A stretch of 32,870 nucleotides of DNA from an uncultured Algoriphagus sp. GTDB taxonomy: Bacteria > Bacteroidota > Bacteroidia > Cytophagales > Cyclobacteriaceae. The notes beneath the pieces are model-generated. The model did no database searches and was not told the DNA's origin. It saw nothing but the letters and a program-made list of their open reading frames with translations. Both the position numbers and the translations under genes were made by a program. Each line of letters begins with the position of its first letter. Positions within the stretch are counted from its first letter, which is position 1. The stretch is from assembly GCA_903952135.1 (NCBI GenBank), contig CAJBER010000219.1:1-32870 (forward strand), read 5' to 3'. Of the stretch, positions 493 to 19,371 are shown one piece after another.

Positions 493-1089
493 CTATAATT
501 TTTTCAAAACTATATTTCTCCAATAGACTTTTATTCCTCCACCATCGTGGATTTGAAGCAAAACACCGCCTTTTCCTGCACCAATCTTCTCATCGGCATA
601 ATTGACCATTTCTACCCCATTCACATAAGATATCACTCGATCCCCCTGCACCACAATACGCATGGTGTTCCATTCGCCAAACTTTAAGGCCTTGTCCTTC
701 TCTGGATCAGGCTTTACCAGCCAGCCCCGACCATAGGATTCGTAAATCCCTCCAGTATCGTTGCCCGGAGGAGCTACCTCCACCTGCCAGCCAGATACCT
801 TGGTGCCGTCTACCGTGGAACGGATAAACACCCCAGAGTTTCCATTGGCCTCTTGCTTAAACTCCAACTCCACCTCAAAATCACCATACTCGGCTGTGGT
901 GCCCAAATAGCCATAGCCCTTGTCAGGTCCACTTTCAGAAACCAACAAGCCCTTCTCTACATACCATTTCTCTGTTCCATACACGGTCCATCCCGTCAGG
1001 TCTTTTCCGTTAAACAATTTTTCCTTTTTCTGGGCATACACCGTCTGCATCCCAACCAGTAGCAAGGCTACTAAAATCACTTTTTTCAT
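493..1089 (-). CDS. Secreted DUF1080 (3-keto-disaccharide hydrolase-type) protein
   Basis: A 198-residue protein with a clear signal peptide (MKKVILVALLLVGMQTVYAQ), followed by one DUF1080 domain (PF06439, concanavalin-like fold). The domain opens with the family motif LFNGKDLTGW and contains GNSGVFIRS and the late GGVLLQIHDGGG. Members are described as 3-keto-disaccharide hydrolases or carbohydrate-binding modules of the outer compartment, and are abundant in Bacteroidota and Planctomycetes. It overlaps the upstream DUF1080 gene by four bases (ATGA), so the two are probably translationally coupled. A strong terminator follows. The precise substrate cannot be read from the sequence. Confidence 0.9.
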   Translation of the reverse strand: MKKVILVALLLVGMQTVYAQKKEKLFNGKDLTGWTVYGTEKWYVEKGLLVSESGPDKGYGYLGTTAEYGDFEVELEFKQEANGNSGVFIRSTVDGTKVSGWQVEVAPPGNDTGGIYESYGRGWLVKPDPEKDKALKFGEWNTMRIVVQGDRVISYVNGVEMVNYADEKIGAGKGGVLLQIHDGGGIKVYWRNIVLKKL

Positions 1090-1853
1090 AAGGGTCGAAT
1101 TTTAATGTTTTTATACCAAACAGGATCCCCATGATCCTGCAATGCAATTAGCCCCTTGCGGGCAATTTTGTAATCAGGGAAATCATTCCACTTGCCTGAA
1201 TTCCGTCGCGTCTTCCAGTCTTCAGAATAAGGCACAAAAGCAACCGTCTGCTTTCCATTCAACCAGTAGCTGGCACCTGCTTCAGAAAAAACAATCTTAG
1301 ACTCGTTCCACTCTCCGGCAGGTTTCACCACTCCTTCGTAATCCGGCTCATACATCGCATAATCTCCAGCAAGTGATTGCCACTTTTCCAGAGGCTGTGC
1401 AAAGCCCAACTGATCAATCACCTGGTATTCCGGTCCTGTATAATAAGGAGCCTTGTAGGCTGGACCCTCCACTACATGGTAGAATACCCCTGAATTACCC
1501 CCTGCGGAGATTTTCCAAGAAAACTTCAATTCAAACTCCTCGAACTCCTGAGGACCATAGACCACATCTCCTCCAAAATCTTCTCCACCCGTAGCACCCA
1601 ATCCCTTCATCGCGCCATCTTCAATGATCCAGTTGGCTGGAGTCGTATCCCCATTGAAGGCTCTCCAACCCTGCATACTATTCCCATCAAATAACAAAAT
1701 CCAGCCCTCGGCCTGCTCCTCTGGAGTCAATGCATTTTCGGCCTGAGCCCCAGTCCCAAGGGAATCCAATCCCGTGGCAGATTCTTGAGACTTGGGACTG
1801 CACCCAAATCCAAGCCCTACCATAAGCGCTAGTACAACAGCAATTTTTTTCAT
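1086..1853 (-). CDS. DUF1080 lipoprotein (3-keto-disaccharide hydrolase-type)
   Basis: A 255-residue protein. The N-terminus MKKIAVVLALMVGLGFGC ends in a lipobox-like GFGC, so it is predicted to be lipidated. One DUF1080 domain follows from about residue 50, with LFDGNSMQGWRAF near its start and GGNSGVFYHV in the core. It is longer than its downstream partner because of an insert around the YTGPEYQVIDQ segment, a form typical of larger family members. It is first in a two-gene unit, with an ATGA overlap at its stop. Likely role: periplasmic or surface processing of (oxidised) sugars together with the neighbour. The family is certain; the substrate is not. Confidence 0.9.
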   Translation of the reverse strand: MKKIAVVLALMVGLGFGCSPKSQESATGLDSLGTGAQAENALTPEEQAEGWILLFDGNSMQGWRAFNGDTTPANWIIEDGAMKGLGATGGEDFGGDVVYGPQEFEEFELKFSWKISAGGNSGVFYHVVEGPAYKAPYYTGPEYQVIDQLGFAQPLEKWQSLAGDYAMYEPDYEGVVKPAGEWNESKIVFSEAGASYWLNGKQTVAFVPYSEDWKTRRNSGKWNDFPDYKIARKGLIALQDHGDPVWYKNIKIRPL

Positions 1854-1954
1854 TTTTCTGTTCGTTTAACTACTAATTCAAACTCGTATTTTTCACTTTT
1901 TAATTCTACCTGTAAACCTGATTTTTTACAGATTCAGGATTGTAGCAACAAGTT

Positions 1955-1999
1955 AAAAAAAAAGTCCCAACCCCATTTCTATAATTTATACAAATGGGG
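1955..1999 (-). terminator. Terminator after the M42 peptidase gene
   Basis: CCCCATTT (1971-1978) pairs with AAATGGGG (1992-1999) over a 13-base loop. On the minus strand a nine-T run follows a few bases later. It lies just after the stop of the peptidase gene, so it probably ends that transcript. The long loop and the spacer before the T run lower confidence. Confidence 0.6.
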
Positions 2000-2010
2000 A
2001 TGTCCCCTCC

Positions 2011-3075
2011 TTAACTGATGTATCGGAAATCAAAACTCGGATCAAAGTCTACCAAAAACGCATACATCAGTTCAATGACCTGCTCAATATCACTTTTGCT
2101 GGCAGTTTCTACCGTAGTATGCATATACTTCAAGGGAAGCGAAATCAATGCAGAAGGCACCCCTCCATTGGAATAAGCAAAGGCATCGGTATCCGTGCCA
2201 GTAGTCCGTGATGCAGCCGCTCGCTGAAAAGGAATCTCATGCTTTCGCGCAGCGGCAATGATAAGATCTAGTAATTTTTTGTGCACCGAAGCTCCATAGG
2301 TGAGCACGGGGCCTTTGCCCGCGGCCTGATCACCGCTACTGATTTTGCTGTACAAGGGCGCTGTAGTATCGTGACAAACATCTGTGATGATCGCCACATC
2401 AGGCTTGATTCGTTGCGCAATCATTTCAGCTCCTCGAAGTCCAATTTCCTCCTGAACCGCATTCACTATATATAGTCCGAAAGGTAGTTTCTTCCCAGAC
2501 TCCTTGATTTTACGAGCTACCTGCGCAATCATGTATCCTCCGATTCGATTGTCCAAGGCTCTGCCTGACCAATATTTTCCATTTAATTCGGTCAGCTCGT
2601 CCTGAAAGGTAATGACACATCCCACATGGATCCCCAACTGCTCCACCTCCGCTTTGGATTGTGCGCCCACATCGATAAAGATATTGTCCAAGGTAGGCGC
2701 ATCTTCTTTTCCTTCTTTCCGCACGTGGATGGCTGGCCAACCGAAGACTCCTGGAACAATCCCTTTATCGGTATGGATATTGACCCGCATGGAAGGAGCA
2801 ATCATGTGATCGGATCCTCCATTGCGGCGAACATAGATGTATCCATCGTCTTTGATGTAGTTGACAAACCAGCTGATCTCGTCGGCATGAGCTTCAATCA
2901 CCACGCGAAAGGGAGCATCGGGCTCGATCACTGCCACAGCGGTACCATAGGAGTCGGTAAAGTAGCTGTCGACATAGGGCTTGATGTAATCTAGCCAGAT
3001 CTGTTGCCCCGAAGCCTCATGTCCTGTGGGGGAAGCATTGTTTAAATAGGTTTTCAAAAACTGAGTCTCATTCAT
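2011..3075 (-). CDS. M42 family metallopeptidase (glutamyl aminopeptidase/endoglucanase family)
   Basis: A 354-residue protein with no signal peptide, the usual length for the M42 family of cytoplasmic, often dodecameric aminopeptidases. The dinuclear metal-site residues are visible in order: H63 and D65 in EAHADE, bridging D175 in GRALDN, E209-E210 in VQEEIG (catalytic base and ligand), D232 in TDVCHD and H319 in YMHTTVE. The role would be trimming of peptides in the cytosol. Some members were historically called endoglucanases, but the residues fit a peptidase. It lies 97 bases after the carboxylase gene on the same strand, and a palindrome sits in the gap, so co-transcription is uncertain. 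A terminator follows. Confidence 0.93.
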   Translation of the reverse strand: MNETQFLKTYLNNASPTGHEASGQQIWLDYIKPYVDSYFTDSYGTAVAVIEPDAPFRVVIEAHADEISWFVNYIKDDGYIYVRRNGGSDHMIAPSMRVNIHTDKGIVPGVFGWPAIHVRKEGKEDAPTLDNIFIDVGAQSKAEVEQLGIHVGCVITFQDELTELNGKYWSGRALDNRIGGYMIAQVARKIKESGKKLPFGLYIVNAVQEEIGLRGAEMIAQRIKPDVAIITDVCHDTTAPLYSKISSGDQAAGKGPVLTYGASVHKKLLDLIIAAARKHEIPFQRAAASRTTGTDTDAFAYSNGGVPSALISLPLKYMHTTVETASKSDIEQVIELMYAFLVDFDPSFDFRYIS

Positions 3076-3089
3076 CGCTTTAGGGGTAG

Positions 3090-3116
3090 GACACTATAAT
3101 TTAAATGGATAGTGTC
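3090..3116. promoter_or_regulatory. Eight-base inverted repeat upstream of the M42 gene
   Basis: GACACTAT (3090-3097) and ATAGTGTC (3109-3116) are perfect inverted arms around an 11-base AT-rich centre, 15 bases before the peptidase ATG. No T run follows on the minus strand, so it is a weak terminator candidate. A dimeric regulator operator or a leader hairpin is possible. Confidence 0.35.
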
Positions 3117-3172
3117 TTTAAGTTTAGGTAAGTGAAAATTTGAAAAGGTGAAAACTTACACCTGAATACTAC

Positions 3173-4756
3173 TTAGAGTGGAATATTGCCATGCTTCTTT
3201 CGAGGCAATTGAGCCACCTTATTTTCGAGCATTTTAAATGCCTTGATTAATTTAGTTCTCGTGTCAGAAGGGAGAATCACCTCGTCAATGTAGCCTCGGT
3301 GTGCAGCACGGTACGGGTTGGCAAACTTGGTCGTATACTCCTCCACCTTCTCTTGTAGTTTGGCTTCGGAATCTTCAGCTTCGGAAATCTCTTTTTTGAA
3401 GATAATTTCTGCTGCTCCCTTTGCCCCCATCACGGCGATTTCAGCCATGGGCCAAGCGTAATTCAAATCTGCTCCAATATGCTTGGAGTTCATCACATCG
3501 TAGGCTCCCCCATAGGCTTTTCGGGTAATCACGGTGATCCGTGGGACCGTCGCTTCGGAGAAGGCATAGAGCAACTTCGCTCCATTGGTAATGATCCCAT
3601 TCCATTCCTGATCGGTGCCTGGCAAAAACCCTGGGACATCCACCAATACCAATAGCGGCACATTGAAACTATCACAGAAGCGCACAAAGCGTGCTGACTT
3701 GATCGATGCATGATTGTCCAAAACCCCTGCCATGGATTGGGGCTGATTGCCCACAATGCCGATGCTCCTGCCGGCAATTCGTGCAAAACCAACTACAATA
3801 TTATCCGCATAGCTTTCATGTACTTCTAAAAACGAGCCTTCATCCACTATCCCGCCAATCACTTCCCGCATGTCGTAGGGATGGTTTGGGTTTTCTGGTA
3901 TCAAAGTATCCAAAACAGGTCTTGTCTCGTCTTTCTTGGGTTCGTAGGGATAACTAGGTGCTCGGTCCTCACAATTTTGTGGGAGGTAGCTCAGCAAGGA
4001 TTTGATTCGCTTCAGCGCCTCCACCTCATTCGCACAGGCAAAATGGGTGACTCCTGACTTAGTGCTGTGGGTGGAAGCTCCGCCCAATTCCTCAGCCGTG
4101 ACTGTTTCCTGGGTAACCGTCTTGACCACATTGGGTCCAGTCACAAACATGTAGGAGGTATTTTCTACCATCAAGATAAAGTCCGTGATCGCTGGAGAGT
4201 AAACTGCCCCACCTGCACAGGGACCCATGATGGCAGAAATCTGAGGCACCACCCCTGAAGCAAGGGTGTTGCGGTAAAAAATATCGGCATAGCCGCCGAG
4301 GGAATTGACCCCTTCTTGAATTCGGGCCCCTCCCGAATCATTCATTCCAATAATTGGCGCACCATTCTTGAGTGCCAAATCCATCACCTTACAGATCTTT
4401 TCGGCATGAGTCTCGGAAAGCGAACCACCAAAAACAGTAAAGTCCTGGGAGTAAACATACACCAATCGTCCATTCACCTCCCCATATCCAGTCACTACAC
4501 CATCCCCGAGGTAATGCTCCTTGTCCAAACCAAAGTCTTTGGATCGATGCATGACAAACTTATCCAACTCTTCAAAGGTGCCCTCGTCCAATAGCAAGGC
4601 GATTCGCTCTCGAGCGGTGAGTTTCCCTTTTTTATGCTGCGCATCAATTCGTGATGCCCCTCCCCCTTGTTCTGCTTCTGCATTTTTTTTCGCCAGAAGG
4701 GCGGTTTTCTCTAGGTGGCCTGATGGGCTGTAATTTGGGTTCTTTGGATCTGTCAT
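3173..4756 (-). CDS. pccB: Acyl-CoA carboxylase beta subunit (propionyl-CoA carboxylase type)
   Basis: A 527-residue carboxyltransferase subunit that moves carboxylate between biotin and an acyl-CoA, probably propionyl-CoA giving methylmalonyl-CoA. Family blocks are clear: the N-terminal [19 protein letters not shown], the acyl-CoA site around [11 protein letters not shown], the oxyanion region [12 protein letters not shown], and the C-terminal half with [13 protein letters not shown] and [15 protein letters not shown]. The ending [10 protein letters not shown] is typical of PccB/MmdA. No biotin carboxylase or biotin-carrier gene lies nearby, so the alpha partner is encoded elsewhere. A methylmalonyl-CoA decarboxylase alpha subunit is the main alternative. 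A TATATTTG promoter element lies 23 bases upstream of the ATG. Confidence 0.93.
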
Positions 4757-4778
4757 CTTGGGAAATTAATTCTTCTAC

Positions 4779-4786
4779 CAAATATA
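4779..4786 (-). promoter_or_regulatory. -7 promoter element for the carboxylase gene
   Basis: The minus strand reads TATATTTG, an exact TAnnTTTG match, 23 bases before the carboxylase ATG. No good TTG is visible 19-21 bases upstream, so only the -7 half is supported. Confidence 0.5.
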
Positions 4787-4939
4787 AACTCTCCAACGGA
4801 TAGAAAAAGCCTTCGCTCCCCAAATCAAGTCCCAAGCTGGATTCAAGCTACTGCTAACCTGCGTTTTATTTGATGTATAAAAACTTAAAATAGAACTTTT
4901 AAAAAACTTTCTATATTCGCCCATCCAAAAAAAAGGACA

Positions 4940-5884
4940 ATGGCAGATCCCAAGAAGGCAGCGGTAATTGATATGGGGACCAACACGTTTCATCTCTTGT
5001 TGGTGGAGCTGGATGGGAAAGAATTTAAGACCATTTACAAGGAAAAAATTGCCGTAAAATTGGGTCAAGGAGGCATCACCCAAAATCAAATTACTCCCGA
5101 AGCCGAAAAAAGAGCGGTACATACCCTTGGTCATTTTAAGAACATGATCGATGGGGAAACAATCAGCCAGGTATTTGCCTTTGCTACCTCCGCAGTTCGC
5201 AATGCAACCAATGGGCCTGACTTTGTCAAAAAAGTCAAGGAGGAACTCGGCATACAAATCCACGTCATTTCTGGGGAAGAAGAAGCCCAGCTGATTTACG
5301 AAGGCATTCATTTTTCAGGAGCGCTGGACGAGCGAACTTCTCTGATGATGGATATCGGCGGGGGCTCTGTGGAATTTATCATAGGCAATTCACAAGAGGT
5401 ATTCTGGAAAAGAAGTTTTGAAATAGGCGGACAGCGTCTTTTAGATGCATTCCATTACCATGACCCCATTTTGCCAGAAGAGGTAGAAAAGCTAGAACAG
5501 TATTGTGGAGAAAAACTTCAGCCCCTACTCGAAGCCATTGCCACCTACCAGCCCAGTGGATTTGTGGGTGCATCAGGTACCTTTGATACGCTGATTGATA
5601 TGTATTATGCGACCATGCTGCAAAGCAAACTCACGGGAGAGCATGTGTTCGAGTTACCAGTGAACCATTTTCACCAGATTTTTCAGTTGCTGGTTACCAA
5701 AAATAGAGCAGAACGATTACTCATCCCAGGCATGATTGCCATGCGAGTGGATATGATTGTGGTCGCAAGCTGCCTCATCGACTTTATCTTGCAACATGTC
5801 CAAGTGGAAAGCATTCGCTGCTCCCATTATTCCTTAAAAGAGGGTGCAGTATCTCGAATGGTCTCGGGGGAAATAAACCTGTAA
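4940..5884 (+). CDS. Ppx/GppA family exopolyphosphatase/guanosine pentaphosphatase
   Basis: A 314-residue cytoplasmic phosphatase with the actin-like ATPase fold. The first phosphate-binding loop is IDMGTNTFHLL near residue 10, the second is MDIGGGSVEF near residue 140, and the catalytic region includes ISGEEEAQLIYEG. The family removes terminal phosphate from polyphosphate or pppGpp. The length matches short single-module members lacking the C-terminal HD-like domain of E. coli Ppx, so it should be called Ppx/GppA rather than either one. It is divergent from the carboxylase gene over 183 bases. A TATATTCG sequence (4912-4919) is a possible, imperfect -7 element. The long minus-strand ORF over its 5' half is a shadow. 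Confidence 0.92.
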   Translation: MADPKKAAVIDMGTNTFHLLLVELDGKEFKTIYKEKIAVKLGQGGITQNQITPEAEKRAVHTLGHFKNMIDGETISQVFAFATSAVRNATNGPDFVKKVKEELGIQIHVISGEEEAQLIYEGIHFSGALDERTSLMMDIGGGSVEFIIGNSQEVFWKRSFEIGGQRLLDAFHYHDPILPEEVEKLEQYCGEKLQPLLEAIATYQPSGFVGASGTFDTLIDMYYATMLQSKLTGEHVFELPVNHFHQIFQLLVTKNRAERLLIPGMIAMRVDMIVVASCLIDFILQHVQVESIRCSHYSLKEGAVSRMVSGEINL

Positions 5885-14715: not shown

Positions 14716-15876
14716 TCAATCTTCTACGGAAAAGCGGTAGTCGATGGTATGCGTGTAGGTTTCCCCAGGCCGAAGTACGGGGCTTGGGAAGTTGGAATGA
14801 TTGATCGCATCAGGCCAATTTTGAGATTCTAAACAAAAGCCCCAATGGGTATCGTAGGTCTGACCCCCTGCACCGGGAAACTTGCTTAGAAAATTGCCCG
14901 TGTAGAATTGAACGCCCACATTGTCTGAATACATTTCCATCACCCGACCACTTTCCGGATGACGCACGCGAGCCACTTGCTTCATTTCGCTTGATTTTTC
15001 ACGTTTCGTCACGAAGTTGTGATCAAAGCCTCCTCCATTGGCTGCGATTTGGTCCCCCAAGATTTTTGGCGAACGAAAATCAAATGGAGTACCTGCTACA
15101 TCCTTCACCTCTCCGGTAGGAATCAGCTCCTCGTCAATGGGTGTGTAGGCGTCAGCCCAAAACTGAATTTCATGATCCAACACATCGCGTTTCATACCTC
15201 CCAAATTGAAGTAGGTATGGTTGGTCAAGTTGACCAAGGTGGCTTGATCTACAGTCGATTCAAATCGAATTCGGAGCGTATTGTCACCATGTAGCTCCAT
15301 CCAGAGCGTCGTCTGCAGGTTGCCAGGATAGCCCTCTTCCCCATCTGGACTGAGGTAAGTCATCTTGACCCCTACCGTGGAGTCTGTGGAGTAGGTTTCG
15401 GGTGTCCACACCTTCTTGTCAAATCCCACTTTTCCTCCATGGAGGTGATTGTCTCCATTGGTCTTCGCTAGATCATAGGTCTTTCCGTCCAACTTGAACT
15501 GAGCATTCGCAATTCGGTTGGCCACTCTACCTGCGGTCGCGCCAAAGAAGGGGTTTTCTGTATCCAAAAAATCTTCTACTCGATCCAAAGTCAAGGCCAC
15601 ATTCTCCTTCTTCCCGTCACGATCTGGTGCTAGGATTTTGTAGACAATCCCTCCAAAGTTGGAGAGTTCTACTTGAATGGTGCCGTTGTCCAACACATAG
15701 CGGTAAACGGGCTGTCCCTGAAAGTCGGTTAGGTGTTCGGATTGAATCATAAAGGTGGTGGTTGCTGATTTGGGGTTTTGTTTTGGAGGAGCGGTACAGC
15801 TACTAATCGCTAAAGTAATTAAAAGTAGGAGTTGGCCTAACCGGAGATTTAAACTAGGAATAGAGTGCTTTTTCAT
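14716..15876 (-). CDS. galM: Aldose 1-epimerase (mutarotase), lipoprotein
   Basis: A 386-residue galactose mutarotase interconverting alpha and beta anomers of aldoses. Catalytic groups are visible: histidines in NGDNHLHGGKVGFDKK and NLTNHTYFNLGG, substrate aspartate in GGGFDHNF, and the glutamate base in FCLESQNWPD. The start was moved to the ATG at 15876 because MKKHSIPSLNLRLGQLLLLITLAISSC is a normal lipoprotein signal (AISSC) and the longer ORF start would bury it. It is therefore exported, as is common in Bacteroidota. It begins eight bases after the amidohydrolase stop, so the two probably share a transcript. Confidence 0.92.
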   Translation of the reverse strand: MKKHSIPSLNLRLGQLLLLITLAISSCTAPPKQNPKSATTTFMIQSEHLTDFQGQPVYRYVLDNGTIQVELSNFGGIVYKILAPDRDGKKENVALTLDRVEDFLDTENPFFGATAGRVANRIANAQFKLDGKTYDLAKTNGDNHLHGGKVGFDKKVWTPETYSTDSTVGVKMTYLSPDGEEGYPGNLQTTLWMELHGDNTLRIRFESTVDQATLVNLTNHTYFNLGGMKRDVLDHEIQFWADAYTPIDEELIPTGEVKDVAGTPFDFRSPKILGDQIAANGGGFDHNFVTKREKSSEMKQVARVRHPESGRVMEMYSDNVGVQFYTGNFLSKFPGAGGQTYDTHWGFCLESQNWPDAINHSNFPSPVLRPGETYTHTIDYRFSVED

Positions 15877-15883
15877 AAACAGT

Positions 15884-17254
15884 TCAGTTTCTGAGGTGAT
15901 TTTTTTCGATACGATCCAAATTACTTTGAAGTTCTTCTCTCCCAATCCACTTTCCTCGGATCACTACACCCACGGGCTTTTGGAGGGTTTTAAGATCAAG
16001 CAGCGGGTTTTGTTCCACAAGGACAAAATCGGCTTCAAAGCCTTCTTTAATTTGTCCCCAACTGTCTGTTACTCCCATGTACTGGGCAGGAACAAGCGCC
16101 CCTGTTTTTAAGATTTCAAGGTTGGACATTCCTGCTTCCGACATCAAGGCGATCTCGTGGTGGATTGAAAATCCTGGAACATTGAATACCTGCGGGGAGT
16201 CAGAGGCCATGATCATGGGCACGCCAGCGCGGTGCATTTCAAGAAACAACTTTCGGCGAAAAGCGAGGTAAGGAGCCACTACTTCTTTGTTCAGCATGCC
16301 TGCCCGTTCCAATTGCTTTTTGGTATTCACCCATTGTTGGATCTGCAAGCCTGGGAGGTATTTCATTTCTGGAGCCAGACGAAAGGTATCGGCCGGAATG
16401 TATCCAAAATACCGGTCAAACAGCGTGAGCGTAGGCGCCAAGTAAGTCCCTTGATCCAAGGTCTTCTGAATGAGTCCTGGGAGTTTGCTCCAGTCCACTT
16501 GAGAAGATAAATTCAGGTTAAATGGGCCAGAGGTAGCGGGGTCAATGGTAACCGTATTGGGAAGTAAACCTTCCATGTACCCATCCATGTGTTCGATGGA
16601 TTTAAAGCCATCTTCCAGGGCCTGATGAATCCCAACATCCAAAGGTACGTGTCCTCCAAATGGAATATTTTCTGCCTTGGCTGAAGTTGCGATTGCTTTC
16701 ATTTCATCCGAAAGCACTCCTGGATGGATCTTTAAGTGATCGTAGCCTTCTTGCTTTTGGGATTTGACCATCGCCGCACCCTGCGCTGGGTCTGTCACGG
16801 AATTGGCATTGAAGGAGGGGCCTGAAATGTAGGTTTTTGGTCCCATCAATTGCCCTGCATTCAATTTATCTCGAAGGGCAATGTGGCTCGGGTGTCCCAA
16901 CATGCTTCGAATCCGTACCACCCCATTGGCTAGGTAAAGCCACATGGATTCCTCTTGGAGTTGGGTATTGCCATCTGCAGCTACCGGCAAATGCGCATGA
17001 AATTCGGCAAGCCCAGGGAAAACATAACTACCCTTGCCCTCGACTTGGGTCACTTGCTGCCAGGCCGCGGGCAACTTTCCAGCAGGGACAATGGATTCAA
17101 TTTTGCCATTTTTGACCAAAAGGGTTTGGTCCTCTTGAATCTTTCCCGTTTCCAAAGAAACCACATGGACGGACGTGATGACTAGGTCTTGGCCAAAAGC
17201 AAGGAGCGAAAGAAGTCCAAAAAGAAGAGTCAGGGCAAGCGATTTGAATGTCAT
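15884..17254 (-). CDS. Secreted metal-dependent amidohydrolase
   Basis: A 456-residue amidohydrolase-superfamily protein. The start was moved to the ATG at 17254, which opens a clean signal peptide (MTFKSLALTLLFGLLSLLAFG); the track ORF adds 35 residues before it. Metal-site motifs appear in order: HxH in FPGLAEFHAHL, the lysine-containing HLKIHPG, histidines in FGGHVPLD and KSIEHMDGY, and aspartate in MIMASDSPQV. The C-terminal LLDLKTLQKPVGVVIRGKWI is the usual family ending. Relatives include imidazolonepropionase-like and prolidase-like enzymes that hydrolyse peptides or cyclic amides in the periplasm. The substrate cannot be assigned. It is followed after seven bases by galM, which need not be functionally related. 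Confidence 0.88.
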   Translation of the reverse strand: MTFKSLALTLLFGLLSLLAFGQDLVITSVHVVSLETGKIQEDQTLLVKNGKIESIVPAGKLPAAWQQVTQVEGKGSYVFPGLAEFHAHLPVAADGNTQLQEESMWLYLANGVVRIRSMLGHPSHIALRDKLNAGQLMGPKTYISGPSFNANSVTDPAQGAAMVKSQKQEGYDHLKIHPGVLSDEMKAIATSAKAENIPFGGHVPLDVGIHQALEDGFKSIEHMDGYMEGLLPNTVTIDPATSGPFNLNLSSQVDWSKLPGLIQKTLDQGTYLAPTLTLFDRYFGYIPADTFRLAPEMKYLPGLQIQQWVNTKKQLERAGMLNKEVVAPYLAFRRKLFLEMHRAGVPMIMASDSPQVFNVPGFSIHHEIALMSEAGMSNLEILKTGALVPAQYMGVTDSWGQIKEGFEADFVLVEQNPLLDLKTLQKPVGVVIRGKWIGREELQSNLDRIEKNHLRN

Positions 17255-17411
17255 AGGGGTATACTTCAGTTGATGTTTGAAGTTCGCTCCTTGTTTAACC
17301 AAATCCAATCCCATTGATGGAAAAAAGAGGATCATTTTGGTCAACGGTCCACAGTTCACGGCTGATGGGATTGAACTTCAACTCCAAGTTGCTTTTTATC
17401 GAGTGACTTTT

Positions 17412-17457: not shown

Positions 17458-19359
17458 TTAAGAATTCGTCCATTGGGTGTGGTAAAACTTCCCGCTTGGA
17501 TCGTCCTTGCGCTGATACGTGTGCGCCCCAAAATAATCGCGCTGGGCCTGAATCACCGATGCTGAAGACTCGGCAGTAATTCGACCTAGCAGGTAGTTGA
17601 TCCCTGCACTCATCACCGGCAAAGCAAACCCATTGGTCACCCCCAAGCCCACCAATTCCGCCAAGGCCTTTCTTCCAGAAATCACCTGTTCTTTCACTCC
17701 CGGGATTTCAAAGAAGGCCACTTGATCTGCATAATTGGCTGAAATTCGCTCCATCAAACCGGATCGGATGATGCAGCCATTGGTCCAGATGCGGGCGATT
17801 TCATTGAAATTCAGTTCCCAGCCTTTGGTGTCTGATACGGTTTTCATCAATCGGAAGCCTACCTCATGATTGATGATTCGAGCCAAGGCATAGGCCTCTT
17901 TGATTTTGGGAAGCCAAGTTTCCAAAGAACCCTCCACCTTTTGAAATTCATGTTGGAAGGTTTTGGAAAATGCTACGCGCATCGCCTTTTCTCCAGACAC
18001 ACCACGCGCATTCACGGCCTCAGCCAATGGACTGTAGGGAATTCCGTACTCCAAGGCAGTGGTTAAGGACCAAGCTCCAGTCCCTTTTTGACCAGCCTGG
18101 TCCAAGATTTTATCGAGCAGCAATTCTCCCCCTTCTTTGAAAAGCAAAAGATCGGCAGTGATTTCCAGCAGGAAGGACTTCAACTCGCCTTTTCCCCAAT
18201 CCGAAAAAATAGCAGATACCTGAGCAGCCGAGCAGCCAAATCCAAAACGGAGGAAGTGAACCAACTCCGCCAAAACCTGCATCTCCCCGTACTCAATCGA
18301 GTTGTGGACCATTTTGATAAAGTGACCGGATCCTCCCGGACCAACGTAGGTCACGCAAGGCTTTCCATCCTTGTCTTTGGCAGAGATTCTGCCCAAGAAA
18401 TCGGCCACCATCGCATAACCTTCCGCATTTCCGCCAGGCATGATGGATGGTCCTTTGCGTGCCCCTTCTTCTCCGCCGGATACCCCCATGGGGAGGAAAT
18501 GCATGCCCACTTCTTTGAGGCGATTGACTCTTCGATCTGAATCGAGGTAGAAGGAATTGCCTCCATCGATCACCAAATCGTCTTTCTCCAAAATCGGAAT
18601 CAAGGCATCCAACTGGGCATCGATCGCAGCGCCCGCAGGAATCATCATCAAAATGCGACGCGGGGTAGCCAAGGAAGCCACAAAAGCTGCAAGGTCCTCA
18701 AATGCAGCCATTTGCGTGAACTCTGGATTTTCTAAGAGCACTTTTTGAGCGATACCCTCCTCCTTACCCGCCACAAATCGGTTGTAAAGAGATACGGAAA
18801 CCCCATTTTCTGCGAGGTTGAGTGCCAAGCTTTTGCCCATCACACCCATACCGATCACCCCCATGTTCATTTTCATGTCCTGCATTTTTAAATAGTGTAG
18901 TGAAACCTCCAACACTTCAGCTGGGGTTCCAGAAATAGCAACCAAATGGCCGACTCGTGGCTGCTCCCAAATGACAAGTTGGGAGTCCAAAAGTCCTGCC
19001 TTCATGTAGTGGTTTTGACGCGCAAGCATCCGTTGCCAGATCAGGTCTCGGTCACCAACCAGGTGGATCCAACGCAAACTTTCGCTCACCTGAAGCTGCT
19101 CCCGGTAGCCGTTTTTAAGTGCCGAACAGGCGAGTACTGCGCCCCCCTTTTCTTCCATCTCCAGCAACTTGGCCGCCAAGCTGGCTAACCAGGGTTGGCG
19201 ATCAGCATCCGTGAGTGGCTCTCCACTGCTCATTTTTTCAATGTTGGCAGGAGGATGAAAGTCATCGGCATCCAAAAAGGGGATTCCCAGTGCCTGAGAC
19301 AAGCCCAATCCTAGGGTAGTTTTCCCTGTACCTGAAACTCCGGTGACCACTACAAGCAT
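17458..19359 (-). CDS. gntK-gnd: Bifunctional gluconokinase / 6-phosphogluconate dehydrogenase fusion
   Basis: One uninterrupted ORF of 633 residues joins two enzymes. Residues 1-160 are a GntK-type gluconokinase: Walker A GVSGTGKTT, then DADDFHPPANIEKMSSGEPL and ACSALKNGYREQL. Residues about 164-633 are a full-length decarboxylating 6-phosphogluconate dehydrogenase: GVIGMGVMG nucleotide loop, GVSGGEEGARKGPSIMPGG, HNSIEYGEMQ, DQAGQKGTGAW and the ending AQRDYFGAHTYQR. Together they would turn gluconate into ribulose-5-phosphate. Four in-frame ATGs (18885, 18876, 18870, 18864) cluster at the junction and could also start a free Gnd of about 470 residues. The start at 19359 is preferred because MLVVVTG aligns with GntK and a -7 promoter element lies immediately upstream. 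Confidence 0.9.
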   Translation of the reverse strand: MLVVVTGVSGTGKTTLGLGLSQALGIPFLDADDFHPPANIEKMSSGEPLTDADRQPWLASLAAKLLEMEEKGGAVLACSALKNGYREQLQVSESLRWIHLVGDRDLIWQRMLARQNHYMKAGLLDSQLVIWEQPRVGHLVAISGTPAEVLEVSLHYLKMQDMKMNMGVIGMGVMGKSLALNLAENGVSVSLYNRFVAGKEEGIAQKVLLENPEFTQMAAFEDLAAFVASLATPRRILMMIPAGAAIDAQLDALIPILEKDDLVIDGGNSFYLDSDRRVNRLKEVGMHFLPMGVSGGEEGARKGPSIMPGGNAEGYAMVADFLGRISAKDKDGKPCVTYVGPGGSGHFIKMVHNSIEYGEMQVLAELVHFLRFGFGCSAAQVSAIFSDWGKGELKSFLLEITADLLLFKEGGELLLDKILDQAGQKGTGAWSLTTALEYGIPYSPLAEAVNARGVSGEKAMRVAFSKTFQHEFQKVEGSLETWLPKIKEAYALARIINHEVGFRLMKTVSDTKGWELNFNEIARIWTNGCIIRSGLMERISANYADQVAFFEIPGVKEQVISGRKALAELVGLGVTNGFALPVMSAGINYLLGRITAESSASVIQAQRDYFGAHTYQRKDDPSGKFYHTQWTNS

Positions 19360-19363
19360 GTGA

Positions 19364-19371
19364 CAAAGGTA
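19364..19371 (-). promoter_or_regulatory. -7 promoter element of gntK-gnd, near-leaderless
   Basis: The minus strand reads TACCTTTG, an exact TAnnTTTG match, ending four bases before the chosen ATG (19359). A TTG lies 22 bases further upstream (19396-19394), slightly beyond the usual spacing. The transcript would begin at or within a few bases of the ATG. Confidence 0.55.

Follow-up and report, generated by a model that had tools for sequence, protein, structure and literature searches.

A GntK-Gnd fusion protein of Bacteroidota, a probable bifunctional enzyme leading from gluconate to ribulose 5-phosphate

The window, by which we mean the whole stretch of 32,870 nucleotides from an uncultured Algoriphagus sp. 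that was analyzed, encodes in a single open reading frame a gluconokinase (GntK) joined at its C-terminus to a 6-phosphogluconate dehydrogenase (Gnd). This GntK-Gnd fusion is an established protein architecture and no peculiarity of one genome, as it is present across the genus, the family, other families and another class of the phylum. With a probability of roughly 0.7, we read the protein as a bifunctional enzyme that takes gluconate to ribulose 5-phosphate in carriers that are mostly without glucose-6-phosphate dehydrogenase (G6PDH, encoded by zwf), that originated from a pair of overlapping genes, and that was joined at a later time by zwf and pgl in the window's clade. We infer both activities, the role of gluconate as the main substrate, the evolutionary order and the physiological role from sequence.

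Results

Two complete enzymes in one frame

The fused gene occupies positions 17458..19359 of the minus strand (633 amino acids), and in the window's sequence its frame is open from 19359 to the stop codon at 17458-17460 without an internal stop. The start at 19359 is conserved in the alignment of relatives; the start chosen by the ORF caller is 19419 (653 amino acids). The sequence-only reading had described a complete GntK and a complete Gnd in one ORF, and this description stands: both halves score above curated cutoffs, with no stop between them. The GntK/IdnK-type gluconokinase domain (residues 1-152, 18904..19359, minus strand) carries the P-loop GVSGTGKT, and its match to TIGR01313 (residues 3-138, 151.9 bits, cutoff 113.75) places it in the GntK family. 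The Gnd domain (residues 164-633, 17461..18870, minus strand) matches TIGR00873 as a full-length Gnd (residues 165-631, 510.6 bits, cutoff 426.7) and PRK09287 with 515.6 bits (cutoff 413). Solved relatives of the GntK half are 3t61, 4eun and 1knq, and the Gnd half matches the solved structure 2zyg with an E value of 4.5e-121 (phmmer).

The AlphaFold2 model of the fused monomer has a mean pLDDT of 92.6 and a pTM of 0.84. It contains an interdomain linker of about six residues (160-165, 18865..18882, minus strand), which connects the helix that ends the GntK domain (146-159) to the strand with which Gnd begins (166-169). A Foldseek comparison of the Gnd part of the model with the solved Gnd folds 3fwn/2zya gave a target TM of ~0.95.

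All GntK motifs that we checked (GVSGxGKT, HPxxN, a DRxPWL-type motif, CSAL and SQ..E) are present, as are those of Gnd, namely the catalytic Lys/His/Asn in KMVHN, the SGG motif and the C-terminal R...H tail. Residues G7, G10, G12, K13, H35, P36, N39, D53 and R54 of GntK, and likewise W57, C78, S79, A80, L81, S126 and Q127, are invariant in 16 of 16 fusions; in Gnd, K349, H352, N353, S294, G295, G296, R607 and H613 are invariant in 16 diverse fusions. Across these proteins the P-loop, the GntK motifs and the Gnd elements SGG, KMVHN and QAQRDYFGAH are invariant or nearly so. As the motif residues of both enzymes are preserved over so diverse a set, both halves are probably active. The NR dipeptide at residues 193-194 is compatible with NADP as the cofactor of Gnd.

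The two domains thus resemble well-characterized families. The kinase shares its P-loop and substrate-motif residues with GntK/IdnK-type gluconokinases (TIGR01313; E. coli GntK, 1knq), but E. coli GntK is a stand-alone protein of ~175 amino acids. The dehydrogenase has the full length, the fold, and the catalytic and C-terminal tail motifs of NADP-dependent Gnds (TIGR00873/PRK09287), but belongs to a Bacteroidota clade of its own, fused to or paired with GntK.

Upstream region and junction

The sequence TACCTTTG at 19364..19371 (minus strand) matches TAnnTTTG, the −7 element of Bacteroidota. As this box ends 4 nt ahead of the start codon, the mRNA of the fused gene is possibly nearly leaderless. 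In related genera, a sequence similar to TACCTTTG is likewise located ahead of the start.

The junction does contain the four ATGs noticed in the sequence-only reading, all of them in frame (codons 159, 162, 164 and 166; 18862..18885, minus strand), and initiation at them could yield both the fused protein and free Gnd from a single mRNA. In the window's genus, at least one ATG lies within eight codons of the Gnd start in all 22 analyzed fused sequences. Of the 33 fused sequences analyzed from other lineages, however, no more than 12 have such an ATG, and the analyzed fused sequences display no extra third-position conservation at the junction, where it is average. We consequently rejected a conserved internal start, and the earlier proposal of free Gnd is not supported as a general mechanism; a dual product from one mRNA is very unlikely. 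The junction methionines could instead be relics, since they stand where a free Gnd would have started.

Distribution of the fusion

In the window's genus, the fusion was found in 22 of 37 sampled genomes, in two of these split over contig ends; 14 genomes are non-fused and one has neither form. At the family level, full-length fusions were present in 63 of 247 genomes, the carriers representing 26 genera, and a sample of 396 genomes of the phylum revealed the fusion in other families and in another class. Gluconokinase was detected in 72 of the 292 genomes of the order, in 20 of them inside a frame of at least 600 amino acids, i.e. fused. Named carriers among the matches listed include Lacihabitans sp. 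and Salinimicrobium sediminis, each with a single frame. An assembly or frameshift artefact is excluded because the same uninterrupted frame recurs in dozens of independent genomes, single-contig ones included.

Outside Bacteroidota, where our sampling was light, there was no fusion among the matches listed, and both genes, where found, were separate. Unfused neighboring gntK and gnd occur in Rhodococcus, Vibrio, Granulosicoccus and Desulfosediminicola. A horizontal or plasmid origin was rejected: matches on plasmids are remote, with <60% identity, and the best of them are adjacent unfused genes. One genome (G254) contains two divergent fused copies ~20 kb apart (L061, L062), one adjoining a gene for a GntP-family permease and the other near genes for an Nramp-family transporter and a GntR/FCD regulator.

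Probable origin from overlapping genes

In the Gnd tree, a single clade (SH-aLRT 100) unites the fused Gnds with most of the Bacteroidota Gnds whose gene adjoins gntK; classical Gnds, including the zwf-linked Gnds of congeners, stand apart from it. The paired genes often overlap, by 4-17 nt in L088, L089, L090, L101, L139 and L221: the overlap is 8 nt in the first three (ATGAGTAA or GTGAGTAA), ATGA in L139, 11 nt in L101 and 17 nt in L221. As these pairs encode Gnds of the same clade, the pattern suggests that the fusion arose from overlapping gntK and gnd genes, which a small frameshift at the overlap would join. Fused and paired sequences furthermore interleave in the trees, so more than one fusion event, or some splitting, is likely. 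In Bacteroidota, a translationally overlapping gntK/gnd pair would thus have become a fused gene, possibly more than once.

The same overlaps lend themselves to a more modest account, in which both domains are active and the fusion is a near-neutral by-product of the overlapping pair with no gain beyond co-expression. The Gnds of overlapping pairs are of the same lineage as the fused ones, yet their genes have stayed separate. Unfused gntK and gnd also lie next to each other in the four genera named above. The single frame nevertheless persists across 26 genera, and losses in the window's genus accompany another Gnd and not splitting. This account deserves serious consideration, even if we lean against it.

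Probable loss of the Gnd half in congeners

The fused gene of the window is followed downstream by an amidohydrolase gene (15884..17359, minus strand), a conserved neighbor that serves as the syntenic anchor of the locus, and by an aldose 1-epimerase family gene (14716..15945, minus strand), the next syntenic neighbor within the genus. The fused gene is followed by the same amidohydrolase gene in 11 relatives of other genera (L037-L047). Non-fused congeners have gntK at the same locus, again with the amidohydrolase and aldose epimerase genes downstream of it, and their GntK groups with the fused GntKs of the genus, with the fused L037-L047 relatives as sister in the tree. Their Gnd is of a different lineage, ~39% identical to the fused Gnd, and lies elsewhere, adjoining zwf and pgl in the loci examined.

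As gntK is kept at the same locus while another, zwf-linked Gnd is used, the simplest reading suggests a secondary loss of the Gnd half in non-fused congeners, where the classical zwf-pgl-gnd set is present. An AU test of the alternative, in which all fused forms make up one clade that excludes the standalone congeners, did not reach significance (p = 0.066); synteny bears much of the argument, as the sequences by themselves do not decide the matter. The sequence-only reading had named two separate genes at this locus in close relatives as evidence against the fusion. This is partly the case, as 14 of 37 congeners are non-fused, but it leaves the fusion standing: gntK is at the same locus in them, and their Gnd is a different one, linked to zwf and located elsewhere.

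Source of 6-phosphogluconate

The N-terminal gluconokinase would phosphorylate gluconate to 6-phosphogluconate, which the C-terminal NADP-type dehydrogenase would oxidatively decarboxylate to ribulose 5-phosphate and NADPH. That the fused enzymes catalyze consecutive steps had been pointed out from the window's sequence, with channelling of 6-phosphogluconate as a hypothetical consequence, and the architecture has since proved widespread. In HMM searches of genomes that were partly drafts, zwf was undetected in 48 of 53 genomes with a fused or paired gene, a count in which G6PDHs unrelated to the model would be missed. In 59 genomes, the same type of search, with the same reservation about draft genomes, gave no edd match that reached the cutoff; the leftover matches score far lower and probably represent IlvD-type dehydratases, and we rejected the use of 6-phosphogluconate by the Entner-Doudoroff pathway.

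As most carriers are without zwf and none has edd above cutoff, gluconate, often supplied via a GntP permease, would be the apparent source of 6-phosphogluconate. At least 15 carriers have a gene for a GntP-family permease immediately next to the fused or paired gene; the GntP family also takes in transporters of other substrates. In one carrier (G178:C1:3641493-3642813), the GntP permease gene that adjoins the fused gene is split into three frames. An SMP-30/gluconolactonase gene adjoins the gntK/gnd pair in L101 and L221. In the L101 locus (665-5870), from a Flavobacteriaceae MAG, genes for a GMC oxidoreductase and a gluconate-2-dehydrogenase-subunit-3-like protein come ahead of the gluconolactonase gene and the overlapping gntK and gnd; the locus looks like a full glucose-to-ribulose-5-phosphate operon. 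In the window's genus and its sister genera, the link to gluconate is indirect because the fused gene has the amidohydrolase gene and not GntP as its neighbor.

The classical branch in the window's own genome

Neither zwf nor pgl lies beside the fused gene, as the sequence-only reading had noted; they are found side by side on another contig of the same genome (C129). The consecutive genes of this cluster are a glucokinase-like gene, which weakly matches the polyphosphate glucokinase model, a short zwf, and pgl; gnd is missing from it (G000:C129:15277-18081; L070 9247-12051). Its zwf differs in type from that of non-fused congeners (461 vs ~645 bits), and no Gnd other than the fused one was found in the genome. 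Because the zwf-pgl cluster is there without gnd, we infer that in the window's clade the fused Gnd also serves the classical oxidative branch. The four well-assembled fused genomes of the genus that are without zwf (G016, G025, G032 and G296) take the basal positions in the fused group, as would be expected if its other members acquired zwf-pgl later. A zwf-pgl cluster without gnd would have been added to the window's clade at that point, and the fused Gnd would then complete the classical oxidative branch.

With zwf and pgl present and no other gnd found, the protein of the window's organism could even be mainly the Gnd of the classical oxidative pentose phosphate pathway, its kinase half being vestigial or minor. 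The kinase motifs are intact, however. Non-fused congeners moreover keep a standalone gntK without the Gnd half, so that gluconokinase seems to be under selection, and a mainly dehydrogenase role is unlikely.

Discussion

The GntK-Gnd fusion appears to provide its carriers with another way into the pentose pathway, a reading to which the scarcity of glucose-6-phosphate dehydrogenase among its carriers lends weight. Whether it belongs to a G6PDH-free oxidative route at the level of the phylum is a question to which we would give just short of even odds: glucose or other sugars would be oxidized to gluconate, gluconate would be imported by GntP and turned by fused or overlapping GntK-Gnd into NADPH and ribulose 5-phosphate, and the Gnd half would be dropped when the classical zwf-pgl-gnd set was regained.

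Several known systems offer parallels. In eukaryotes, G6PD is fused to 6PGL (chordate H6PD, Plasmodium, Giardia/Trichomonas) and, in Phaeodactylum, to 6PGD (PMC3148214). These fusions likewise join enzymes of one short pathway, but they involve G6PD, whereas here the kinase of gluconate entry is fused, in bacteria mostly without G6PD. Obligate methanotrophs have a gluconate shunt of glucose dehydrogenase and GntK, for which no fusion is described (PMC8062543). It likewise leads from glucose via gluconate to 6-phosphogluconate and bypasses glucose 6-phosphate but, unlike the GntK-Gnd fusion, is unfused and feeds the Entner-Doudoroff pathway or the pentose cycle (PMC8062543). Adjacent gntK and gnd (Rhodococcus opacus plasmids, L101/L221) encode the same two steps at one locus, but as two polypeptides. 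A search confined to the open literature found no published description of the GntK-Gnd fusion; an earlier notice may exist in subscription papers or protein databases.

Annotating the fused proteins gene by gene as Gnd conceals their gluconokinase half. Genes at successive stages, from the overlapping pair to the fusion and on to the loss of one half in the presence of a substitute, form a natural series in which to test what makes enzymes of consecutive steps join and separate. Together with the missing zwf in most carriers, the fusion implies that part of the Bacteroidota may feed the oxidative pentose branch from gluconate and not from glucose 6-phosphate.
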